This document shows positions 44,241 through 55,704 of a DNA stretch of 64,000 bases, piece after piece. Under the pieces are notes generated by a model. That model made no database searches. It was not told the DNA's origin and worked only from the letters and a program-made list of their open reading frames with translations. Source of the stretch: Anaerolineae bacterium (GTDB lineage: Bacteria; Chloroflexota; Anaerolineae; UBA4142; SHND01); assembly GCA_020851635.1 (NCBI GenBank), contig JADZCJ010000044.1, forward strand, positions 124,001-188,000, written 5' to 3'. Position 1 is the first letter of the stretch. Each line of letters starts with the position of its first letter. A program made the position numbers and the translations under genes.

Positions 44241-45143
44241 CTACACCTGTGCCAACCACTCGCGAAATTCGGGCGCGTCCATTTTTTGGGTCGCGCGCCC
44301 CCAGCGGTCTGCTGCCCAGCCCCAAAAATCATAATCAATGGTCGAGATTTTTGCCTGAATCGCCGCCCACAACGTCCACCCCACATCCGACATGACCATG
44401 TTTAGCCGCATCCGCGCGAGTTTGTCAGGATACGCTGCGCCAAAATACCCGACGCACAATTCGCGCTGTGCCGTTTCGTCAAACTGCTGTTCTTGCGCCG
44501 TGTTGCCCAATTCAAAGGTCGGGTCATTGTTGCCGCTGTACTCGAAATCAATCAACCACAGTTTCGCGCCATCGTCAATATAATTCTCTGCCAGTAAATC
44601 ATTATGACAGGGGACGGTAGGCAGCGGATGCCGCGCAAACGCGGTTTCAATCTCGCGCACGCGCGGCATGTATTGCGGGTATCCGTCGGGAATGGTCACG
44701 TCCTGCTCGCGCGCAATCTGCAAATAATGCTCGGCGAGCCGAAACATATCAAAATCGCGCAAAAAACGCGGACCGCCGTGCAGTTGTTTTAACGATGCAG
44801 CCATGCGCGTTGGGACGCCGGATTCGTTGAGGCGCGGGATGCTCATCGTCGTGCCGTGAATATATTCCAGCACCATTACGTTTTCGGCGTCCAAATACTC
44901 GACCACGCGCGGCGCAATCCCCGTCGTGCTTGCTGCCCGCGCGTTAAAAACTTCGTTGGCGCGGTCAATCGCCAATAGTTCTGTTTTGGCGCCGGGAATC
45001 CGCACCACATACGGCACGCCGTCCGCCTCGACGCGATAGTTGGTATTGGTCAGCCCGCCGCTCAACGGCGCGATGGCAAGAGTTTTGCCTTTGAATGTGG
45101 CAAGCCGAGATAGCACACTTTTAATCGGCTCAATCAAACTCAC
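44241..45143 (-). CDS. Choline/ethanolamine kinase-like phosphotransferase (APH fold)
   Basis: 300 residues from a GTG that overlaps the TGA of the upstream flavoprotein (GTGA). N-lobe: [20 protein letters not shown] (nucleotide loop), [20 protein letters not shown] with the ATP-contact Lys position replaced by the family's RIPG. C-lobe: [20 protein letters not shown] (Brenner motif with catalytic Asp) and [20 protein letters not shown] (metal-binding DFE). It resembles LicA-type choline kinases. The substrate could be choline or a related amino alcohol. Its overlap with a dimethylglycine/sarcosine dehydrogenase-like gene points to methylamine or choline-derived metabolism, which is an inference. 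Confidence 0.86.
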
Positions 45144-47626
45144 CCCTTTACCTTTTCACCCCTGGGGTCGTACAACACATCCGCGTCCACCTGCGCGGGG
45201 AACCGCTCACCCAGTATCTCTATCTCGAGCGGCGTCCCTGCTTTTGCCGCCTCGAGCGGCAAATACACAAAACCAATGCTCTTGCCCACCGTATACCCAT
45301 AACCGCCACTGCGTAACCGCCCCATCAACTCCCCATTGTGATAGACCGGCTCTCCGCCATAAAGCCCCGGGTTGCGCTCCATCGTGATCGTAGCCAGTTT
45401 ACGCGTGCGTTCCTGTTTTTGCGTTACAAGCGCCTCTCGCCCGATAAAATCACCCTTGTCCATTTTTACGCAAAAGCCGAGACCCGCTTCATACGGGTTC
45501 TCATTCGGCGTAATGTCCGTGCTCCAATAACGATACCCTTTTTCCAGCCGCAGCGAATCGAGCGCCTTGTAGCCCGCGGGTTGAATCCCAAATTCTGCCC
45601 CCGCGCGCATCAACGCATCCCACACAAGCCCCGCGTCCTTGTTTTCGAGACAAAATTCCCAACCCAATTCGCCCACATACGTCACGCGCTGCGCCCACAC
45701 CCGGCAGTTTTCTATCCCGATAAATTTTCCTCTCATGTAGGGCAAGCCCGCGTTCGAAACATCATCCCCGGTGGCGCGCGCCAGGACATGCCGCGCCAGA
45801 GGTCCCCACATTCCAATCACCGCATACTGTTCTGTCACATCCCGGATCTCGAGACTCGCCAACTTCGGGTCACTATTTTCCAGTCGCTCTTGCTGCATCT
45901 CCATCCAGCCCAGATCGCTCGGCACAAAACTACTCCCACAGATCACGCGAAAATGTTCCTCGCCCAGCCGCGCAATCGTCACATCGCTCTCGATGCCGCC
46001 GCGCGGGTTCAAAAACTGTGTATACGTGATTGTGCCGACGGGTTTGTCCAAATCATTGTCCGCGAGCAGATTCAAGAATGACAATGCGCCTGCCCCGCGC
46101 ACGTCCACTTTGCCGAACGAGGTCATGTCCCACAGCGCCACCCGTTCGCGCGCGGCGCGATGCTCCTCACCCGCCTCTTGGAAAAATGGCGTGTCGAACC
46201 ATCCTGTCGCGCGCTGGTCTGCGCCCGCGCGCTTGCCGACCCCGCCCGCCGCAAAATAGTTGACGCGCTCCCAACCATTCTTTTCGCCAAAAACACCGCC
46301 CATTGCCAGCATCTTGGCATCCAGAGGCGATTTGCGTTTCTCGCGCGCTCGCTCGTTTTCATCGTGCGGAAACCGCAGCCAGTAGTAATATTTGTATGCT
46401 TCTTGAGCGCGCTCGGAAGCATAGGGGCGGTCGCGGCAAATTTCGCCAAAGCGCCGCACATTCAATTCGGTCACATCATACGGCGGCTCGCCATTCACAA
46501 TCCACTGCGAAATAATATCGCCGATTGCCGCGCCCGCGCCGAATCCCGTGTGCGACAACCCACACGCCGCCCAGAACCCGGGCACACCGGGCACGGGACC
46601 CAACAGCGGTTTGCTGTCGGGCGTGAGCGCCTCGGGACCATGCACCAGATTCACCACCTCTGCCTTTTCGAGCATGGGCATCCGTCGAACCGCGCCCTCC
46701 ATGATTGGCGCAAACAATTCCCAATCGGGCGGCAAGAGCTGTTGCGTAAAATCCCACGGCACGCCGTCAAGCGCCCAGTCACGCGGCTCCAGCTCGAACC
46801 CGCCGATCACCAGTCCCCCGACTTCTTCGCGCAAATAGACCAGGTTCTCGGGATCGCGCAGACAGGGCAGCGTTTTGGGGAATGTGAATCCGGGCACCCG
46901 CGCCAGCAGGTGCTGATGCCCGAGCGGCGTCATGGGCAAATTCACGCCAACCATCTCACCCAGCTGTCGCCCCCACATTCCGCCTGCGTTCACCACACAA
47001 TCCGTTTGAATCGCGCCCTGCTCTGTTGTCACGCCGCAAATCGCGCCCTTGCCGTCGCGCAAAATATCGGTCACGCGCACGTTGGTCAAGATCGTCGCGC
47101 CGCCCAGTTTCGCGCGCCGCGCAATTTCCATCGTCGCGCCGCTCGGGTCAATCCACCCATCAGTGGGCAAAAAAATCGAGCCAAACAAATCCTCGCCGCT
47201 CATCCATGGAAAGATTTCCAACGATTCCCGTGGCGAAATGATCTCGACGCTCAAGCCAATCGCCTTTGCCAGCCCGACCTGCCGTTTCAGAAACAGAAAC
47301 TGGTCCGGACTCGACGCCACGCGCAGACTGCCCACCTCATGCCAATTCCCCGCGCCCTCATCCATGCCGCGATACAGGTCAATGCTGTATTTACGCATCC
47401 GCATCAGCGTCGGCGAGGTGTGAAAATGCGTCAGCATCCCCGCCGCGTGCCATGTCGAGCCGCTGGTCAGTTCGCCCTTGTCCAACAGCACCACATCTCG
47501 CACGCCCAACTGTGTGAGATGATATGCAATGCTCGTCCCCGCAATTCCCCCGCCGATCACCACAACCCGCGCGTGCTTGTTCCAAGGTCCGCCGTTCGTA
47601 ACCGCCTCCCGCATTGGATCGCTCAT
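45140..47626 (-). CDS. FAD-dependent dimethylglycine/sarcosine dehydrogenase-like protein (DAO plus GcvT)
   Basis: 828 residues, the length of two-domain DMGDH/SARDH enzymes. The FAD domain has VVVIGGGIAGTSIAYHL (G25-x-G-x-x-G30) and SGSTWHAAGM, whose His60 is the covalent-flavin His of this family. DPENLVYLREEVGGLVIGGF and GPEALTPDSKPLLGPVPGVP follow. From about residue 445 to the end is a folate-binding GcvT-like part, including DMTSFGKVDVRGAGALSFLN, YVGELGWEFCLENKDAGLVW, and NENPYEAGLGFCVKMDKGDF. It would demethylate an N-methyl glycine and pass the C1 unit to tetrahydrofolate. Exact substrate unknown. It heads a three-gene unit with the kinase and transketolase. Confidence 0.92.
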   Translation of the reverse strand: MSDPMREAVTNGGPWNKHARVVVIGGGIAGTSIAYHLTQLGVRDVVLLDKGELTSGSTWHAAGMLTHFHTSPTLMRMRKYSIDLYRGMDEGAGNWHEVGSLRVASSPDQFLFLKRQVGLAKAIGLSVEIISPRESLEIFPWMSGEDLFGSIFLPTDGWIDPSGATMEIARRAKLGGATILTNVRVTDILRDGKGAICGVTTEQGAIQTDCVVNAGGMWGRQLGEMVGVNLPMTPLGHQHLLARVPGFTFPKTLPCLRDPENLVYLREEVGGLVIGGFELEPRDWALDGVPWDFTQQLLPPDWELFAPIMEGAVRRMPMLEKAEVVNLVHGPEALTPDSKPLLGPVPGVPGFWAACGLSHTGFGAGAAIGDIISQWIVNGEPPYDVTELNVRRFGEICRDRPYASERAQEAYKYYYWLRFPHDENERAREKRKSPLDAKMLAMGGVFGEKNGWERVNYFAAGGVGKRAGADQRATGWFDTPFFQEAGEEHRAARERVALWDMTSFGKVDVRGAGALSFLNLLADNDLDKPVGTITYTQFLNPRGGIESDVTIARLGEEHFRVICGSSFVPSDLGWMEMQQERLENSDPKLASLEIRDVTEQYAVIGMWGPLARHVLARATGDDVSNAGLPYMRGKFIGIENCRVWAQRVTYVGELGWEFCLENKDAGLVWDALMRAGAEFGIQPAGYKALDSLRLEKGYRYWSTDITPNENPYEAGLGFCVKMDKGDFIGREALVTQKQERTRKLATITMERNPGLYGGEPVYHNGELMGRLRSGGYGYTVGKSIGFVYLPLEAAKAGTPLEIEILGERFPAQVDADVLYDPRGEKVKG

Positions 47627-47788: not shown

Positions 47789-47816
47789 TTGACATCCCGA
47801 CAAATAGCTATATACT
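47789..47816 (+). promoter_or_regulatory. Strong sigma-70-type promoter of the shikimate operon
   Basis: TTGACA (47789-47794, perfect -35) and TATACT (47811-47816) are separated by 16 bases. The predicted transcription start is near 47823, only about seven bases before the ATG of the leader peptide. This is the best promoter match in the window. Confidence 0.75.
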
Positions 47817-47829
47817 CGCCTCCAACAAT

Positions 47830-47922
47830 ATGCATCCTCGCTCGGGCTTTTATTTTACGTGGTTTTATTTTACCTTTGCAAACACAAAGGTCGAACAGCC
47901 ACGCGTGCCGAGCGGAGCGTAA
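47830..47922 (+). CDS. Aromatic-rich leader peptide (attenuator)
   Basis: A 30-codon frame beginning ATG CAT CCT and ending with TAA at 47920-47922. Residues 7-16 are FYFTWFYFTF: five Phe, two Tyr and one Trp in ten codons (47848-47877). No Shine-Dalgarno is seen; the ATG lies about seven bases from the predicted transcription start, in line with other near-leaderless starts in this window. The stop is 27 bases before a strong terminator hairpin. This is the layout of a trp/phe-type leader peptide whose translation senses charged tRNA-Phe, -Tyr and -Trp. The peptide itself need not be stable. Expression is not proven. Confidence 0.78.
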   Translation: MHPRSGFYFTWFYFTFANTKVEQPRVPSGA

Positions 47923-47948
47923 AATCCAACACAGGCACACCAACCAGG

Positions 47949-47979
47949 GAGCGTGGGGTTTCGACCCCACGCTCTTTTT
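47949..47979 (+). terminator. Attenuator terminator before aroF
   Basis: GAGCGTGGGG (47949-47958) and CCCCACGCTC (47965-47974) form a perfect 10-bp stem with a six-base loop, followed by TTTTT (47975-47979). The 5' arm (GCGTGG, 47951-47956) can instead pair with CCACGC (47899-47904) inside the end of the leader frame; adjoining GTGCC (47905-47909) can pair with GGCAC (47934-47938). CCACG can also pair with CGTGG at 47858-47862, within the Thr-Trp codons. The three pairings exclude each other, as in classic attenuators. Confidence 0.8.
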
Positions 47980-48059
47980 GTTGGCAGCAAACGTCGCTGC
48001 AAACGTGCCTGTTTTATGACCTCTACCCAACGGCACGCCGCCGACGCCGTGCCCCGGTA

Positions 48060-48120
48060 GGACAAATCGCAAATCATATGCCGCTGATTTGTCCCTTTTG
48101 GACAAGACACACGCTTGTCC
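48060..48120 (+). promoter_or_regulatory. Overlapping hairpins before the aroF start
   Basis: Four segments can pair in alternating ways: GGACAAATC (48060-48068) with GATTTGTCC (48086-48094); TTGTCC (48089-48094) with GGACAA (48100-48105); GGACAAG (48100-48106) with CTTGTCC (48114-48120). A GGAGG sequence follows at 48127-48131. Another hairpin, GGCACG/CGTGCC, lies just upstream near 48032-48053. A second level of control, perhaps of translation, is possible. Confidence 0.5.
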
Positions 48121-48223
48121 CCAAATGGAGGTCCGCATGCTCACTCAACATACCACTCGCAACATCATGCCGCCGCTCGTCGTCGCCGATGAGCCGCAAG
48201 CAATCTGTAAGGAGGTTTCTGCA

Positions 48224-49237
<1,014 letters not shown>

Positions 49238-49261: not shown

Positions 49262-50131
49262 ATGTCAACCTCCTCTCCCTTTACCACTGACGCAATCGTC
49301 GGTCTGGGTCTCATGGGCGGCTCGCTTGCTCTGGCGCTCAAGCAAAAATATCCCGCGCAAAAAATTATCGGCATCACCCGCACACGCGCCACGCTCGACC
49401 TGGCGTTGGCGCGCGGCGCGATTGACTCGGCAAGCGACCAATTGGCGGCGGCGCGCGCCGCGAATCTGATTGTCCTCGCCGCGCCTGTACGCACCATCCT
49501 CCGCCAGATCGCGGACCTTGCCGAAATCGCGCCCGACGGGGCAATTCTGCTCGATATGGGCTCCACCAAAAGCCGCATCGTCCGCGCCATGGACGCGCTG
49601 CCCGAACGTCTCGGCGCGGTTGGCGGACATCCCATGTGCGGCAAAGAAATCGCCGGATTTGAAGCGGCAGAGCCGACGCTCTATCAAGACAAGATTTTTG
49701 TGCTGACTCCCACCGCCCGAACGGACACGAACGCGCTAGAGACCGCCCGCAACCTCGCACGCGCCATCGGCTCGCGCGTCATTGAACTGGATGCCGCGCG
49801 CCACGATGAAATTGTCGCCGCCGTTTCGCATTTGCCCTATGTCGTCTCGTCCAATCTCGCGGGGACGGTTGGCGATTTTGCCGAAAATGATGCGACGGTC
49901 TGGAACATTGCATCAAGCGGCTTGAGCGACACCTCGCGACTCGCGGCGAGCGATGTGCAAATGATGCTGGACACGCTCTTGACCAACAGCGAAAACGTCG
50001 CCGACCTCATGCGCGCCTATTCGCGCCGTTTTGGCGATCTGGCGGATGCGCTCTACAACGGCGACGAAGCTGCCCTGCGCGCCATGTTGGAACAAGCCGC
50101 GGCTGTGCGGCGCAATTGGCGTTCGGGCTAA
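49262..50131 (+). CDS. tyrA: Prephenate dehydrogenase
   Basis: 289 residues, without chorismate mutase or ACT domain. The NAD-binding motif is IVGLGLMGGSLALALKQKYP. LLDMGSTKSRIV carries the catalytic-region Ser101, and GAVGGHPMCGKEIAGFEAA has the catalytic His123; both match the Ser/His pair known from Aquifex TyrA. VAAVSHLPYVVSSNLAGTVG is the helical dimer domain. It turns prephenate into 4-hydroxyphenylpyruvate for tyrosine. It starts 24 bases after aroF. A second, catalytically altered relative lies at 59263. Confidence 0.95.
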   Translation: MSTSSPFTTDAIVGLGLMGGSLALALKQKYPAQKIIGITRTRATLDLALARGAIDSASDQLAAARAANLIVLAAPVRTILRQIADLAEIAPDGAILLDMGSTKSRIVRAMDALPERLGAVGGHPMCGKEIAGFEAAEPTLYQDKIFVLTPTARTDTNALETARNLARAIGSRVIELDAARHDEIVAAVSHLPYVVSSNLAGTVGDFAENDATVWNIASSGLSDTSRLAASDVQMMLDTLLTNSENVADLMRAYSRRFGDLADALYNGDEAALRAMLEQAAAVRRNWRSG

Positions 50132-50154
50132 TCCGCGCAACCTTTACGACCATC

Positions 50155-51456
50155 ATGACCGAACTGACTCTCTCCCCCGCCGCCAAACCCCTTTCGGGAC
50201 GCATCACAGTGCCCGCCGACAAGTCCATCACGCATCGCGCCCTGATGCTTGCGCCGCTCGTCCACGGCGAATCGCGCATCCACAATTATCTGGACAGCGA
50301 AACTACCCGCGCGACCCTGAATTGCATGCGCGCGCTGGGTGCGGACATTCAAGAGAGGGAACCCGGCACGCTGGTCGTGCGCGGGCGCGGTCTCCATTCC
50401 CTGCAAGAACCGCGTGATGTGCTCTATTGTCTCGGCAGTGGCACCACCACGCGCTTGATGGCAGGACTGTGCGCGGGGCAATATTTTCTTTCCGTCCTCG
50501 ACGGCACGCCCGCGCTCAAACGTCGTCCGATGGGGCGCATCGTGGAACCGCTCAAGCAAATGGGCGCAGTGATTCTCGCGCGTGACAATGACCGCTTTTT
50601 GCCGCTCGTATTGCGCGGCGGCAATTTACGCGGGATCGAGTACGCTCTCCCTGTCGCCAGCGCGCAGGTCAAGTCCGCCATTCTGATCGCGGGTCTCTTT
50701 GCCGATTCGCCCACCACCATCAGCGAACCGGCGCCCACGCGCGACCATACCGAGCGCATGTTCCGCGCGATGGGCGTCGAAATTATCCCGACGTCCGATC
50801 ACACGGTCCGACTCGTTCCGCCGGCACAACTCGAACCGCAATCTGCAGACCTGACAATTCCGGCGGACCTTTCTTCCGCCGCGTTTTTCATCGTCGCCAC
50901 GCTGCTGGTCCAAAATTCGCGTCTTGAACTCTTGAACGTGGGACTGAATCCGGGGCGCACGGGCTTGCTCGACGCGCTGGCGCGGATGGGCGCATCCATC
51001 CAAATCGAAAATCCGCGCGACGAGAATGACGAACCCATCGGCGACCTCGCCGTCCGTTCGGCAGCGCTGCGCGGGACCGAAATCAGCGGCGCGGAAATCC
51101 CGCGCATGATTGACGAATTTCCCATCCTCGCCGTTGCCGCCACGCAAGCAGAGGGCGAAACGCGTGTCCGCGACGCACAGGAACTCCGCATCAAAGAAAG
51201 CGACCGCGTCGCCACCGTGACAGGCGAACTGCGAAAAATGGGAGCGCAGATCGAGGAGCATGAGGATGGGTTCACCGTTCACGGTCCGACCCGCTTGCAG
51301 GGCGCGCGTGTATTTGCCCACAATGATCATCGTCTCGCCATGGCGCTCGCCGTTGCCGCGCTCATCGCCGAGGGCGAAACCATCATCGAGGGGTGGGAAA
51401 GCGTTGCAGACTCGTTCCCGAATTTTGATCGGCTGCTGCTGAGCGCATCTGCATGA
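50155..51456 (+). CDS. aroA: 3-phosphoshikimate 1-carboxyvinyltransferase (EPSP synthase)
   Basis: 433 residues from the ATG at 50155 (MTELTLSPAAKPLSGRITVP). An upstream in-frame extension was rejected as it starts inside tyrA. Motifs: VPADKSITHRALMLAPL, LGSGTTTRLMAGLCAGQY, LDGTPALKRRPMGRIVEPLK, SAQVKSAILIAGLFA, DEFPILAVAATQAEGET, RIKESDRVATVTGELRKMG and HNDHRLAMALAVAALIAEGE. It adds enolpyruvate to shikimate 3-phosphate. The phosphoenolpyruvate-site motif is SGTTTRL rather than NAGTAMR, closer to the class found in many Gram-positives. It overlaps aroE by ATGA. Confidence 0.96.
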   Translation: MTELTLSPAAKPLSGRITVPADKSITHRALMLAPLVHGESRIHNYLDSETTRATLNCMRALGADIQEREPGTLVVRGRGLHSLQEPRDVLYCLGSGTTTRLMAGLCAGQYFLSVLDGTPALKRRPMGRIVEPLKQMGAVILARDNDRFLPLVLRGGNLRGIEYALPVASAQVKSAILIAGLFADSPTTISEPAPTRDHTERMFRAMGVEIIPTSDHTVRLVPPAQLEPQSADLTIPADLSSAAFFIVATLLVQNSRLELLNVGLNPGRTGLLDALARMGASIQIENPRDENDEPIGDLAVRSAALRGTEISGAEIPRMIDEFPILAVAATQAEGETRVRDAQELRIKESDRVATVTGELRKMGAQIEEHEDGFTVHGPTRLQGARVFAHNDHRLAMALAVAALIAEGETIIEGWESVADSFPNFDRLLLSASA

Positions 51457-52331
51457 AATACCTGTATCTCTTTGGTTACCCGCTCGGACATTCGATTTCC
51501 CCCGCCTTTCAAAACGCCGCGCTGCGCGCGTGCGGCGTGCGCCGGGTGCGGTATGTCAAAAACCCCATGCCGCCCGACAAATTTCAAGAAATCATTCTCG
51601 CCCTGCGCGCGCCACATTGTCTCGGCGCCAACATCACCGTGCCATACAAGCAGACGATTCTGCCCCTGCTGGACGAGGTCTCGCCGCTCGCGCGCGAAAT
51701 CGGCGCGGTCAACACGGTCGTCAAGCGCGCAAACAGGGATGGCTCGGTCACGCTGGTCGGTGAAAACACCGACGCGTACGGATTTATGCAGGCACTGCGC
51801 GCGCGCCGCGTGAACCCGCGCGGACAGCGCGTCGCGATTCTGGGCGCGGGCGGCGCGGCGGCGGCGGCGGCGTACGCCCTCGCAGAGGCGGGCGCACACG
51901 AAATTATTTTGCTCAATCGCACCCTCGCGCGCAGCATAGAACTTGCCGACCGGCTCGTCCAAAAATTCCGCCGCATGGGGCTGGCGATCAATGATTGGGA
52001 TGCGCTGGGCAAAACCCAGCTGCTCGTCAACGCCACATCGGTGGGAATGTCGCCGCACCCCGACGCCTCACCCTTGCCCCCGCATGTCCTGCTCGCGCCG
52101 CACGCGGTCGTTTATGACCTTGTGTATAATCCTCCCATGACCCGATTTTTGCGCGAGGCGCAGGCACAGGGCGCGCGCATCGTCGGCGGTCTGGAAATGC
52201 TGATTTATCAGGGGGCGCGCGCCTTTGAATTGTGGACGGGCAAGCGCGCGCCGGTTCGCATCATGCGCGTCTCTGCCGCTCGCGCCCTGGAGGAAATGAT
52301 TCGCGCCGCCGACGCCGGGCACAAAGGGTAG
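51453..52331 (+). CDS. aroE: Shikimate dehydrogenase
   Basis: 292 residues, start ATG overlapping the aroA stop. Substrate site: LFGYPLGHSISPAFQNAAL with SxS, GANITVPYKQTILPLLDEV (catalytic Lys), and GAVNTVV then GENTDAYGFMQAL (catalytic Asp). Cofactor domain: VAILGAGGAAAAAAYALAEA and ILLNRTLARSIELADRLV, with Asn-Arg-Thr as the NADP-binding loop. VNATSVGMSPHPDASPLPP and GLEMLIYQGARAFELWTGKR complete it. It reduces 3-dehydroshikimate to shikimate. Length is slightly above the usual 270-285. Confidence 0.96.
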   Translation: MKYLYLFGYPLGHSISPAFQNAALRACGVRRVRYVKNPMPPDKFQEIILALRAPHCLGANITVPYKQTILPLLDEVSPLAREIGAVNTVVKRANRDGSVTLVGENTDAYGFMQALRARRVNPRGQRVAILGAGGAAAAAAYALAEAGAHEIILLNRTLARSIELADRLVQKFRRMGLAINDWDALGKTQLLVNATSVGMSPHPDASPLPPHVLLAPHAVVYDLVYNPPMTRFLREAQAQGARIVGGLEMLIYQGARAFELWTGKRAPVRIMRVSAARALEEMIRAADAGHKG

Positions 52332-52363: not shown

Positions 52364-53503
52364 ATGCTTCGTTTTTTAACTGCGGGTGAATCACACGGTC
52401 CCGCGCTCTCTTGCATCGTAGAGGGCTTGCCTGCGGGCTTGCCTATCTCGATTGACGCCATCAACACCGACCTCCATCGCCGCCAGACGGGTTATGGCGC
52501 GGGCGCGCGCATGAAAATCGAACGCGACACGATACAGATCACGGGCGGCATCGTCAACGGCTTGACCATCGGCGGTCCCGTCGGCATGTTGGTCGAAAAT
52601 CTGGATTGGAAAAACTGGAAAGACAAGGTCACGCCGCCGCAAACAATCCCGCGTCCGGGTCACGCCGACCTCGCTGGCGCGACCAAGTACGATTTACAGG
52701 ACCTGCGGATGGTAGGAGAGCGCGCGAGCGCGCGCGAGACGGCCATGCGCGTCGCGGCGGGGTCACTGGCGCGGCAGCTCCTGGCACAATTTAACGTCGT
52801 CGTCGGCGCGTATGTCACCGAGATCGGCGGCGAGATTGCCGAAACGCCCGACCTGCCCTATCCCGAACGGTTTGCGCGCGCGCAAACAAGCGACGTGTGC
52901 GTATACGACGAGCCGAGCGCGGAACTCATTCGCAAACGCATCTATGCGGTGATGCAAGCCAAAGAGACCGGCGGCGGCGTCATCGAGACCGTTGCGCTCA
53001 ATCTGCCCGTCGGTCTCGGCACGCATGTGCATTGGGACCGCAAACTGGATGGGCGGCTCGCGCAGGCGATCATGTCCATCCACTCGGTCAAAGGGGTCGA
53101 GATCGGCAGCGCATTCGAGAACGCGCGCAAACTGGGGACCGAGGTGCAAGATGAGATTTTTATTCGCGATGGGCAACTCGTGCGCGACACCAACCGCGCG
53201 GGCGGGCTGGAAGGCGGGTTGACCAACGGCGAACCGCTGGTCATTCGCGCGGCATTCAAACCCATCGCCACCACGCTCACCCCCATTCGCTCGATTGACG
53301 TCACGACGCGCGAGGCGACAATGATGATTTATCAGCGTTCCGACCTGGTGCACATCCCGCGCGCCTGTGTGATTACCGAAGCGATGGTCTGTCTGGTGCT
53401 CGCCGACGCGATGATGGAAAAATTCGGCGGTGACTCGCTGCGCGAGATGCGGGCGCATTTCAACGCCTGGCATCCCACCTTGCCCGAGCGCCCCGCCGCT
53501 TGA
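52364..53503 (+). CDS. aroC: Chorismate synthase
   Basis: 379 residues, with AAAAGGGA just upstream of the ATG. Signatures: LTAGESHGPALSCIVEGLPA (signature 1), RRQTGYGAGARMKIERDTIQ, PGHADLAGATKYDLQDLRMV, ERASARETAMRVAAGSLARQ (signature 2) and FKPIATTLTPIRSIDVTTRE. It removes phosphate from EPSP to give chorismate and needs reduced FMN. Its place, 32 bases after aroE, completes the route to chorismate in one operon. Confidence 0.97.
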   Translation: MLRFLTAGESHGPALSCIVEGLPAGLPISIDAINTDLHRRQTGYGAGARMKIERDTIQITGGIVNGLTIGGPVGMLVENLDWKNWKDKVTPPQTIPRPGHADLAGATKYDLQDLRMVGERASARETAMRVAAGSLARQLLAQFNVVVGAYVTEIGGEIAETPDLPYPERFARAQTSDVCVYDEPSAELIRKRIYAVMQAKETGGGVIETVALNLPVGLGTHVHWDRKLDGRLAQAIMSIHSVKGVEIGSAFENARKLGTEVQDEIFIRDGQLVRDTNRAGGLEGGLTNGEPLVIRAAFKPIATTLTPIRSIDVTTREATMMIYQRSDLVHIPRACVITEAMVCLVLADAMMEKFGGDSLREMRAHFNAWHPTLPERPAA

Positions 53504-53515
53504 GGATGAATTGAA

Positions 53516-55090
53516 TTGGACCGCCGCAACATTGTCCTCACAGGGTTCATGGGCACGGGCAAAACGTCCGTTGGCAGCGCGCTGGCAAACATGCTCGACC
53601 GCGCGTTCGTGGACATGGATGCCCGTCTCGAAGCGCGCGCGGGCGCGACAATCCCCGAAATCTTTGCTGCGCGCGGAGAATCCGGCTTTCGTGAGCTGGA
53701 AGCTGCGCTGGCGCGGGAACTCGCCGCGAGCGAAAATCTGGTGATTGCCACGGGCGGCGGCGCGCTGATCAATTCGGCAAACCGCGCGGTTTTTTCCGAC
53801 GCGCACGTGATTTGTCTCGATGCGAGCATAGAGGAAATTCTAAAACGACTGAATGGGCTGAATGACCGTCCCCTTTTGCAGGGCGACAAGCGCGCCCGCG
53901 TCCAGGAGCTGCTCGCCTCTCGCCGGGCTGCTTATCGCGAGATTGCCGTCCATGTAAATACCGACGCGCGGACTCCGGAGGACATTGCGCGCGAGATTGT
54001 GAATCGTCTCGAGGCGCGCGAAATCCGCGTGCAAACACCCGGCGACGCCTACCCGATTTTTCTCGGCGCAGGACTGCTCGACCGCGTCGGCGATTTATTG
54101 CACGAGCAAGCGCCCGGTTCCGCCTGCGCCGTCGTCACCAATCCGACCGTCGGCGCGCTTTATGCGGACCGCGTGCTCAATTCCTTGCGCGCCCGGGATT
54201 TTGCGCCCGTCCTGATCACAATTCCCGACGGCGAGCAATTCAAGACCCTCGATACCCTGCGCGACCTGTATGACCAATTTATTGCCGCGCGCCTCGAACG
54301 ACTTTCGCCTATTCTCGCGCTCGGCGGCGGGGTCATTGGCGATACCGTCGGGGTGGCGGCGGCGACCTATCTGCGAGGCGTGCCCTTTGTCCAGATTCCG
54401 ACGACCCTGCTCTCGATGGTTGATTCGAGCGTCGGCGGCAAAGTGGCAGTGGACCATCCGGCGGGCAAAAATCTCATCGGCGCATTCAAATTTCCCCTCT
54501 GTGTCATTCAGGACACGGATGTGCTCGAGACGCTGCCCGTCGAGGAATACCGCGCAGGGATGGCAGAGGTGATCAAGCACGGAATTCTTGGCGACGCGGC
54601 ATTGTTTCACGACCTGCAACGCGGCGCAGCGCTCGACAGCGCGCTGTTGGAACGCGCCCTCCAAGTCAAAATTGATATCGTTCAGCGCGACCCGTACGAG
54701 GACAATATCCGCGCGCACCTTAATCTCGGGCACACCTTTGGACAGGCAATCGAACGACTGGCAGAGTACCGGATGCGGCACGGGTATGCGGTTGCGATGG
54801 GCATTTCCGTTGCTGCCCGTCTCGCCGCCAACCTGGGGCTGTGCTCTCTCGGAACGCGCGACGAAATCATTGCCGCGCTCGAACAATACGAGCTGCCCAC
54901 GCACATCCCCAACCATTTCACATCGGACCAAATTCTCGACGCGATGGGCACAGACAAAAAAATCCAATCCGGCAAACTGCGTCTCATCCTGCCAACCCAA
55001 ATCGGCAACGTTGAAAGCGTCAACCGTGTGACGCGCGGCGAAATCCTCCGCGCGCTGGACAGTTCCTTTCCGCCCATCCCATCCGAATGA
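53516..55090 (+). CDS. aroKB: Shikimate kinase / 3-dehydroquinate synthase fusion
   Basis: 524 residues from a TTG at 53516, with GAGG ten bases upstream; no in-frame ATG precedes it. Residues 1 to about 165 are shikimate kinase: NIVLTGFMGTGKTSVGSALA (Walker A), FVDMDARLEARAG (DxD), ATGGGALINSANRAVF and DRPLL (lid Arg). From about residue 172 is dehydroquinate synthase: PDGEQFKTLDTLRDLYDQFI, LALGGGVIGDTVGVAAATYL, VQIPTTLLSMVDSSVGGKVA, AEVIKHGILGD, NLGHTFGQAIE (metal-binding Glu and His residues). Fusion of these two non-consecutive steps is known in some bacteria. Confidence 0.97.
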   Translation: MDRRNIVLTGFMGTGKTSVGSALANMLDRAFVDMDARLEARAGATIPEIFAARGESGFRELEAALARELAASENLVIATGGGALINSANRAVFSDAHVICLDASIEEILKRLNGLNDRPLLQGDKRARVQELLASRRAAYREIAVHVNTDARTPEDIAREIVNRLEAREIRVQTPGDAYPIFLGAGLLDRVGDLLHEQAPGSACAVVTNPTVGALYADRVLNSLRARDFAPVLITIPDGEQFKTLDTLRDLYDQFIAARLERLSPILALGGGVIGDTVGVAAATYLRGVPFVQIPTTLLSMVDSSVGGKVAVDHPAGKNLIGAFKFPLCVIQDTDVLETLPVEEYRAGMAEVIKHGILGDAALFHDLQRGAALDSALLERALQVKIDIVQRDPYEDNIRAHLNLGHTFGQAIERLAEYRMRHGYAVAMGISVAARLAANLGLCSLGTRDEIIAALEQYELPTHIPNHFTSDQILDAMGTDKKIQSGKLRLILPTQIGNVESVNRVTRGEILRALDSSFPPIPSE

Positions 55091-55251: not shown

Positions 55252-55704
55252 ATGAACATACTCGTCCTTCACGGTCCCAATCTCAACCTGCTCGGGCTGC
55301 GCGAGCCGCACATCTATGGCAAGGAAACGCTCGACGATATCAATGCCGCGCTCGCCGCGATTGCGCGCGACCACAATGTCGAGCTCCGCATTCTGCAATC
55401 CAACCACGAAGGCGCGCTGATTGACGCGCTGCACGACGCGCGCACATGGGCGGACGGCGTGCTCATCAACCCCGGCGCGTTCACGCATTATTCATACGCT
55501 CTGCGCGACGCGCTGGCGGCAACAGACAAGCCGACCATCGAGGTGCATCTCTCGAATGTTCACAAACGCGAAGAATTTCGCCACACGTCGGTCCTTGCGC
55601 CGGTGTGTACGGGTCAGGTCCTGGGGTTGGGTTGGCGGAGCTATACGTTGGGGCTGACGGGGCTGATCCAGCTGTTGGAGCAAAACAAGCCGCACGCTGA
55701 ATGA
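55252..55704 (+). CDS. aroQ: 3-dehydroquinate dehydratase, type II
   Basis: 150 residues, the standard length of type II dehydroquinases, which form dodecamers. Motifs: [20 protein letters not shown] with catalytic Tyr22, [40 protein letters not shown] (NPGA substrate loop), and [20 protein letters not shown] with catalytic His99 and Arg110. It dehydrates 3-dehydroquinate to 3-dehydroshikimate. It is the last gene of the operon, 161 bases after aroKB with a MITE-like element between, so its expression may be partly separate. Confidence 0.97.

Follow-up and report, generated by a model that had tools for sequence, protein, structure and literature searches.

The enterobacterial trpL, pheL (pheA) and pheST attenuators combine alternating 1:2, 2:3 and 3:4 helices with sensing by a codon run, each for one amino acid and each in front of a branch or synthetase gene. 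A single leader can also hold codons for more than one end product of the pathway it serves, as does the enterobacterial ilvGMEDA leader, albeit for branched-chain rather than aromatic amino acids. In Corynebacterium glutamicum, the leader peptide aroR, which contains Phe-Tyr-Phe, precedes the DAHP synthase gene aroF, and stalling on it is described as raising transcription of the operon (Neshat et al. 2014 via PMC11802643; PMC4046766); the response is described as one to Phe, not Tyr, limitation (PMC11802643). The uORFC-13-1 motif, found comparatively, is a predicted upstream ORF with one or more Phe codons before a terminator, located upstream of aroF in Acholeplasma (PMC8632094). Beyond Proteobacteria and Actinobacteria, leader peptides of the classical type are described for histidine genes in Firmicutes, that is, for another pathway and phylum (PMC2965389, PMC9413887). 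For the Phe and Tyr operons of Actinobacteria, a 2005 survey reported no conserved RNA element (PMC1262725). The leader-peptide systems known to a 2010 survey were confined to Proteobacteria and Actinobacteria until it added cases of its own from Firmicutes (PMC2965389).

We analysed a 64-kb stretch of DNA (the window) from a genome of the Chloroflexota class Anaerolineae (5.8 Mb, 97.7% complete). It contains a leader that we read, with a probability of about 0.93, as a ribosome-mediated transcription attenuator of the aroF-tyrA-aroA-aroE-aroC-aroKB-aroQ operon. From its anatomy, conservation and covariation, we infer stalling, termination and the identity of the amino acids sensed. The leader comprises the following features.

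47789–47816, + strand: promoter, with −35 box TTGACA, a 16-nt spacer and −10 box TATACT (11 of 12 consensus matches)
47830–47922, + strand: leader peptide ORF of 30 codons, MHPRSGFYFTWFYFTFANTKVEQPRVPSGA followed by a stop, with 8 aromatic residues in 10
47848–47877, + strand: putative stall region, codons F Y F T W F Y F T F, read from the sequence, with silent substitutions and F/Y exchanges between congeners
47858–47864, + strand: segment 1, CGTGGTT, including the Trp codon at 47860–47862; can pair with 47897–47903
47899–47909, + strand: segment 2, CCACGC GTGCC; can pair with segment 1 or segment 3; invariant in five genomes
47934–47938, + strand: GGCAC, strand of the second antiterminator helix; can pair with GTGCC at 47905–47909; lies inside the invariant intergenic GGCACACCAA
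47946–47979, + strand: intrinsic terminator, with hairpin 47946–47977, core 47950–47973 and T5 at 47975–47979
47951–47956, + strand: segment 3 core, GCGTGG; can pair with CCACGC (antiterminator) or with the terminator 3' arm

The near-consensus promoter, the 30-codon aromatic frame and the GC-rich terminator with its T5 run, all three claimed in the preliminary description, are present. The promoter is the top-scoring one of its region in a promoter scan, stands ahead of the leader in congeners as well, and predicts a transcript start near 47823. The terminator hairpin, whose core lies 27 nt past the leader stop codon and which is conserved among congeners, folds at −24.6 kcal/mol (z = −6.0; 0 of 200 shuffles equally stable); a generic terminator scan missed it, a limit of the pattern used, and folding shows it clearly. 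The folding energy of the whole leader is likewise low relative to shuffles (z = −5.8). Because the upstream gene (45140–47626) is divergent, on the − strand, the terminator can act only on this leader, and nothing else on its strand needs it. This neighbour encodes a fusion of an FAD-dependent oxidoreductase with a GcvT-like aminomethyltransferase, of the sarcosine or dimethylglycine dehydrogenase type.

The genes downstream of the leader are as follows.

48137–49237, + strand: aroF-type DAHP synthase, the first gene controlled (TIGR01361, PRK08673)
49262–50131, + strand: tyrA, prephenate/arogenate dehydrogenase
50116–51456, + strand: aroA, EPSP synthase (TIGR01356)
51453–52331, + strand: aroE, shikimate dehydrogenase (TIGR00507)
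52364–53503, + strand: aroC, chorismate synthase (TIGR00033)
53516–55090, + strand: aroK-aroB fusion, shikimate kinase / 3-dehydroquinate synthase (TIGR01357, PRK14021)
55252–55704, + strand: aroQ, type II dehydroquinase (TIGR01088)

The operon had been presented as the whole shikimate operon with aroF first, and this description stands, except that the second gene, tyrA, is a branch gene. The aroF gene has an alternative start at 48224, with AAGGAGG just before it. Depending on whether translation begins at 48137 or 48224, AroF may carry a 29-residue N-terminal extension (48137–48223) with its own GGAGG; a related extension is found in congener G004 and none in G001. The genome holding the window has one aroF-type DAHP synthase gene, and tandem pairs occur in many genomes of the class (e.g. 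L010/L013 in G001 and L012/L014 in G003).

The RNA can form three mutually exclusive helices (1:2, 2:3 and 3:4), placed so that a stalled ribosome would favour 2:3. CGTGG (47858–47862) in the aromatic run can pair with CCACG, and CCACGC (47899–47904) with GCGTGG (47951–47956), as the preliminary description had proposed. The antiterminator is stronger than was claimed there, with the addition of GTGCC (47905–47909) pairing with GGCAC (47934–47938). When only the RNA downstream of a ribosome on the aromatic run was folded, this antiterminator was predicted in all five congeneric genomes examined: CCACGC:GCGUG(G) and GUGCC:GGCAC, a 10- to 11-bp helix split by a bulge, with an explicit energy of about −14 kcal/mol in four genomes and −11 in one. 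This fold makes clear the role of GGCACACCAA, the stretch between leader ORF and terminator that is invariant in the five genomes, since its GGCAC is what pairs with GTGCC. With the ribosome placed at the stop codon, the terminator alone remained in the folds of the five genomes. An outer stem round the terminator is also possible (GTTGG and GTGCCTG after it against CCAAC and CAGGCAC before it; window 47930–48010); a similar complement, otherwise spelled (e.g. GGTGTGC), occurs in three congeners and is absent in G001. It would form in read-through RNA only.

Transcription would begin near 47823, and a ribosome would initiate on the leader ORF very close to the 5' end. Under a shortage of charged tRNA-Phe or tRNA-Tyr (possibly tRNA-Trp), it would stall in FYFTWFYFTF and mask segment 1; segment 2 (CCACGC-GTGCC) could then pair with GGCAC and GCGTGG once these are made, and the resulting antiterminator would allow read-through into aroF. 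With plentiful charged tRNAs, the ribosome would cover or pass segment 2 on reaching the stop codon, and transcription would terminate near 47979 at the GCGTGGGG/CCCCACGC hairpin. Without a ribosome, helix 1:2 would form and termination would be favoured.

Promoter, F/Y/W run and terminator are kept in all five congeneric genomes with an assembled upstream region, the window's included. In the other four, the leaders before aroF read MQNRFGYFYAWFYFTFANPKVEQPRVPSGI, ...SGV, MQNRLSFYFAWYYFTFANPKVELPRVPSEA and MKHRLGVYFAWFYFTFATSKVELPRVPSGS, and most changes within the run are either silent (TAT/TAC, TTT/TTC) or F/Y exchanges. A fifth congener, G003, appeared to lack the leader; a 100-N assembly gap lies a few dozen bases upstream of its aroF, which makes this genome uninformative rather than a counter-example. 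No such leader was found near pheA, which is located elsewhere in the genomes of the genus. RNAalifold on the five genomes recovered the terminator and a long hairpin for 1:2; three pairs carried changes in both partners (C-G to G-C, U-A to A-U and U-A to C-G), all of them in helix 1:2.

Pairing was assessed over 67 divergent, non-redundant leaders, a few of them from other phyla. We took as segment 2 the stretch between the last aromatic codon and the stop, and as segment 3 the 5' arm of the terminator, and hybridised each segment 2 with the segment 3 of every leader. The mean energy was −12.6 kcal/mol for own 2:3 partners, compared with −11.0 for swapped partners (z = −6.2, p = 0.00005, 20000 permutations). 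Controls with shuffled, reversed or complemented segment 2 gave z values of −0.1 to −1.7, and RNA downstream of the terminator gave +1.0; the one control taken from upstream of the ORF scored −2.4, which counts against the attenuator reading. For the pairing of segment 2 with its own aromatic-run RNA (helix 1:2), z was −8.3. Taken together, 39 leaders also had best duplexes that exceeded chance when compared with within-leader shuffles (combined p about 7e-9). The energy of the whole 2:3 region was only slightly better than that of shuffles (mean z −0.37, p 0.03, 51 leaders), and no better in the window's own leader (z 0.08); total folding energy barely exceeds chance, as would be expected of GC-rich RNA, which pairs somewhere whatever its sequence. 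Base-pair probability of 2:3 against shuffles was rejected as a test, since it reaches saturation in GC-rich leaders and has no discriminating power there. The swapped-partner comparison took the place of these two measures. Support for 2:3 comes from helix identity and covariation, not from raw stability. The preliminary description had suggested looking for compensatory changes in the 2:3 and 3:4 stems; the helices do covary, with three pairs changed in 1:2 within the genus and an own-partner preference for 2:3 over the 67 leaders, and the 1:2, 2:3, 3:4 architecture given there is borne out by this pairing test and by the predicted folds.

The leader ATG in the window lies 13 nt after the −10 box, giving a predicted 5' UTR of about 7 nt with no Shine-Dalgarno. 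In 13 of 44 leaders with a clear promoter, no more than 13 nt separate the −10 box from the first in-frame ATG, and all 13 lack a Shine-Dalgarno-like motif; in the remaining 31, this distance is 14–50 nt, and 15 have such a motif. Leaders of this kind are known elsewhere, as the Sinorhizobium trpL RNA is described to start with its own ATG (PMC7298713).

We surveyed the regions upstream of aroF for an ORF of 8–60 codons with at least 5 of 10 residues F/Y/W and a terminator whose start lies −25 to 130 nt past the stop codon; a degenerate DNA motif of the aromatic run had been dropped as too strict, having found one genome. Applied to both strands of the full 64-kb window, the rule matched this leader alone. 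It matched in 56 of 80 genomes of the class in sense orientation and in none of the 80 in antisense, so that the proposed comparison with relatives finds the aromatic run in these 56 as well as in the five assembled genomes of the genus. For the 24 without a match, short contigs or the terminator rule account for some, and others are perhaps real losses. A second sample, of 80 named AroF loci, gave 47 sense matches (42 in Chloroflexota) and only two chance-like antisense matches; a third minus-strand match (L013) was a congener's own leader. At a stricter 6/10, F/Y/W matched in 53 class genomes and other residue triplets in 0–10. The exceptions were Pro/Gly/Ala (34) and Ala/Val/Gly (25), whose matches are a matter of composition and are found in antisense too (7 and 6, respectively). 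The element is rare in other Chloroflexota classes (3 of 40 at 6/10), and one of these three matches precedes an AroF 73% identical to the window's. Within the class, the leader ORF either immediately precedes aroF or is separated from it by further genes, namely an aroH-type chorismate mutase, a prephenate dehydratase and/or a second aroF. Many class leaders (L016-L062, L143-L222) share, across families, a terminator stem near AGCGTGGAGC-loop-GCTCCACGCT, which suggests an element of common descent rather than one repeatedly invented. F/Y-rich ORFs with terminators also occur before aroF in metagenome-assembled genomes of other phyla: L067, L078 (Calditrichota), L085 (Clostridiales), and L090 and L091 (Acidaminococcaceae, e.g. 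MKPDSVFAANYVFSYSYSYYYGYGYFAW). These are possibly independent attenuators.

These data bear on explanations that do without a stalling ribosome. The short ORF might encode a functional hydrophobic small protein followed by an ordinary terminator, and its peptide is indeed conserved in the genus (YFTFA...KVE.PRVPS). However, the residues conserved at its C terminus are those that segment 2 encodes, the 1:2 and 2:3 complementarity is kept, class-wide the peptides have only their F/Y(/W) content in common and are otherwise unrelated, ends included, and the peptide has no Pfam match; we consider a small protein very unlikely. Short ORFs and terminators are common, which would speak for a chance aromatic ORF before a constitutive partial terminator. 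This is the least probable reading, and a negligible one: the sense-to-antisense ratio in the class, the single match in the window, and conservation with covariation speak against it, and the comparison over genus and class already refutes it.

Equally hard to credit as the small protein is an element that acts on translation or as a ligand-binding RNA (a riboswitch or T-box). The same genomes do have a T-box at trpE, but no Rfam family reaches its gathering score in the window (including Trp_leader, Phe_leader and T-box RF00230), and a T-box core lies upstream of aroF in only 1 of 80 class loci. As for translational control, the hairpin has a T-run and lies at least about 158 nt from the aroF start, so it covers no ribosome site. 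The attenuator reading given in the preliminary description, a prediction from sequence, is upheld by the runs kept in relatives and by the covarying helices.

The preliminary description also held that one leader senses Phe, Tyr and Trp. Phe and Tyr are very likely sensed, and the runs support this well: all 67 contain both F and Y. Trp sensing is plausible: W is found in 17 of the 67, is invariant in the run of the five congeneric genomes, and is roughly 3.6-fold enriched within runs (19 of 320 non-F/Y positions, compared with 35 of 2204 elsewhere in the leaders). The Trp codon TGG (47860–47862) lies inside CGTGG and is thereby also part of helix 1:2, so that the two possible reasons for conserving W are inseparable. 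In the same five genomes, trpE lies behind a T-box whose specifier is UGG in every case (E-values 8e-23 to 2e-15), located before a trpE-like gene as follows.

L102, 452–803: T-box with UGG
L103, 441–839: T-box with UGG
L104, 3075–3460, − strand: T-box with UGG
L105, 372–836: T-box with UGG
L106, 383–701: T-box with UGG

One of the five scores above the Rfam gathering threshold and four below it, probably due to long insertions. Three congeners have short F-rich ORFs near trpE; these sit in the T-box leader and were rejected as attenuators. A narrower form of the attenuator model, compatible with it, is that the leader senses Phe and Tyr only, with TGG kept to pair with CCACG in helix 1:2 and Trp left to the trpE T-box. 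The minority of leaders with W and the UGG-reading T-boxes fit this form, and the Phe-only response described for the C. glutamicum aroF leader (PMC11802643) shows that codon content is no guarantee of sensing; the enrichment of W inside runs and its presence in all five genomes of the genus weigh against it. We see the chances of this form as even.

More tentatively, and at slightly less than even odds, these patterns may reflect a pan-aromatic attenuator across Anaerolineae-type Chloroflexota, which would read charged tRNA-Phe, tRNA-Tyr and, in some genera, tRNA-Trp to set flux into the whole chorismate pathway, with the Trp T-box running the Trp branch and a sizeable minority of leaders being leaderless, with the ATG at or next to the mRNA 5' end.

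The mechanism is classical; what is unusual is its class-wide, multi-aromatic occurrence before a complete chorismate pathway. Compared by description, the C. glutamicum aroR leader is alike in placing an aromatic peptide before a DAHP synthase gene and in raising transcription by ribosome stalling, as predicted here, but it has three aromatic codons and belongs to another phylum, whereas the Chloroflexota leader has eight, including Trp, before the complete pathway. For uORFC-13-1, likewise compared by description, the account lists 24 representatives from Acholeplasma and unassigned environmental sequences, with at least one Phe codon, and describes no Tyr/Trp run (PMC8632094). Unlike the enterobacterial leaders, the Chloroflexota one matches neither Trp_leader nor Phe_leader of Rfam. 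Full-text searches, which covered only a minority of subscription journals and preprints, returned nothing on Chloroflexota, so novelty is provisional. The suggestion that the element may be new holds for the phylum, in the literature searched, and not for aroF leaders as such, given the precedent in C. glutamicum and the prediction in Acholeplasma, nor for leader peptides outside Proteobacteria and Actinobacteria, given those of Firmicutes.

Attenuation looks to be standard for the aromatic pathway across most of a class in a deep phylum whose members are mostly uncultured, and it offers a ready regulatory annotation of that pathway for their genomes. One metabolism would be split between two devices, attenuation for the common pathway and a T-box for the Trp branch. 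The about 100 divergent leaders, in which codon content and pairing alone are retained, offer material for studying how such switches evolve.
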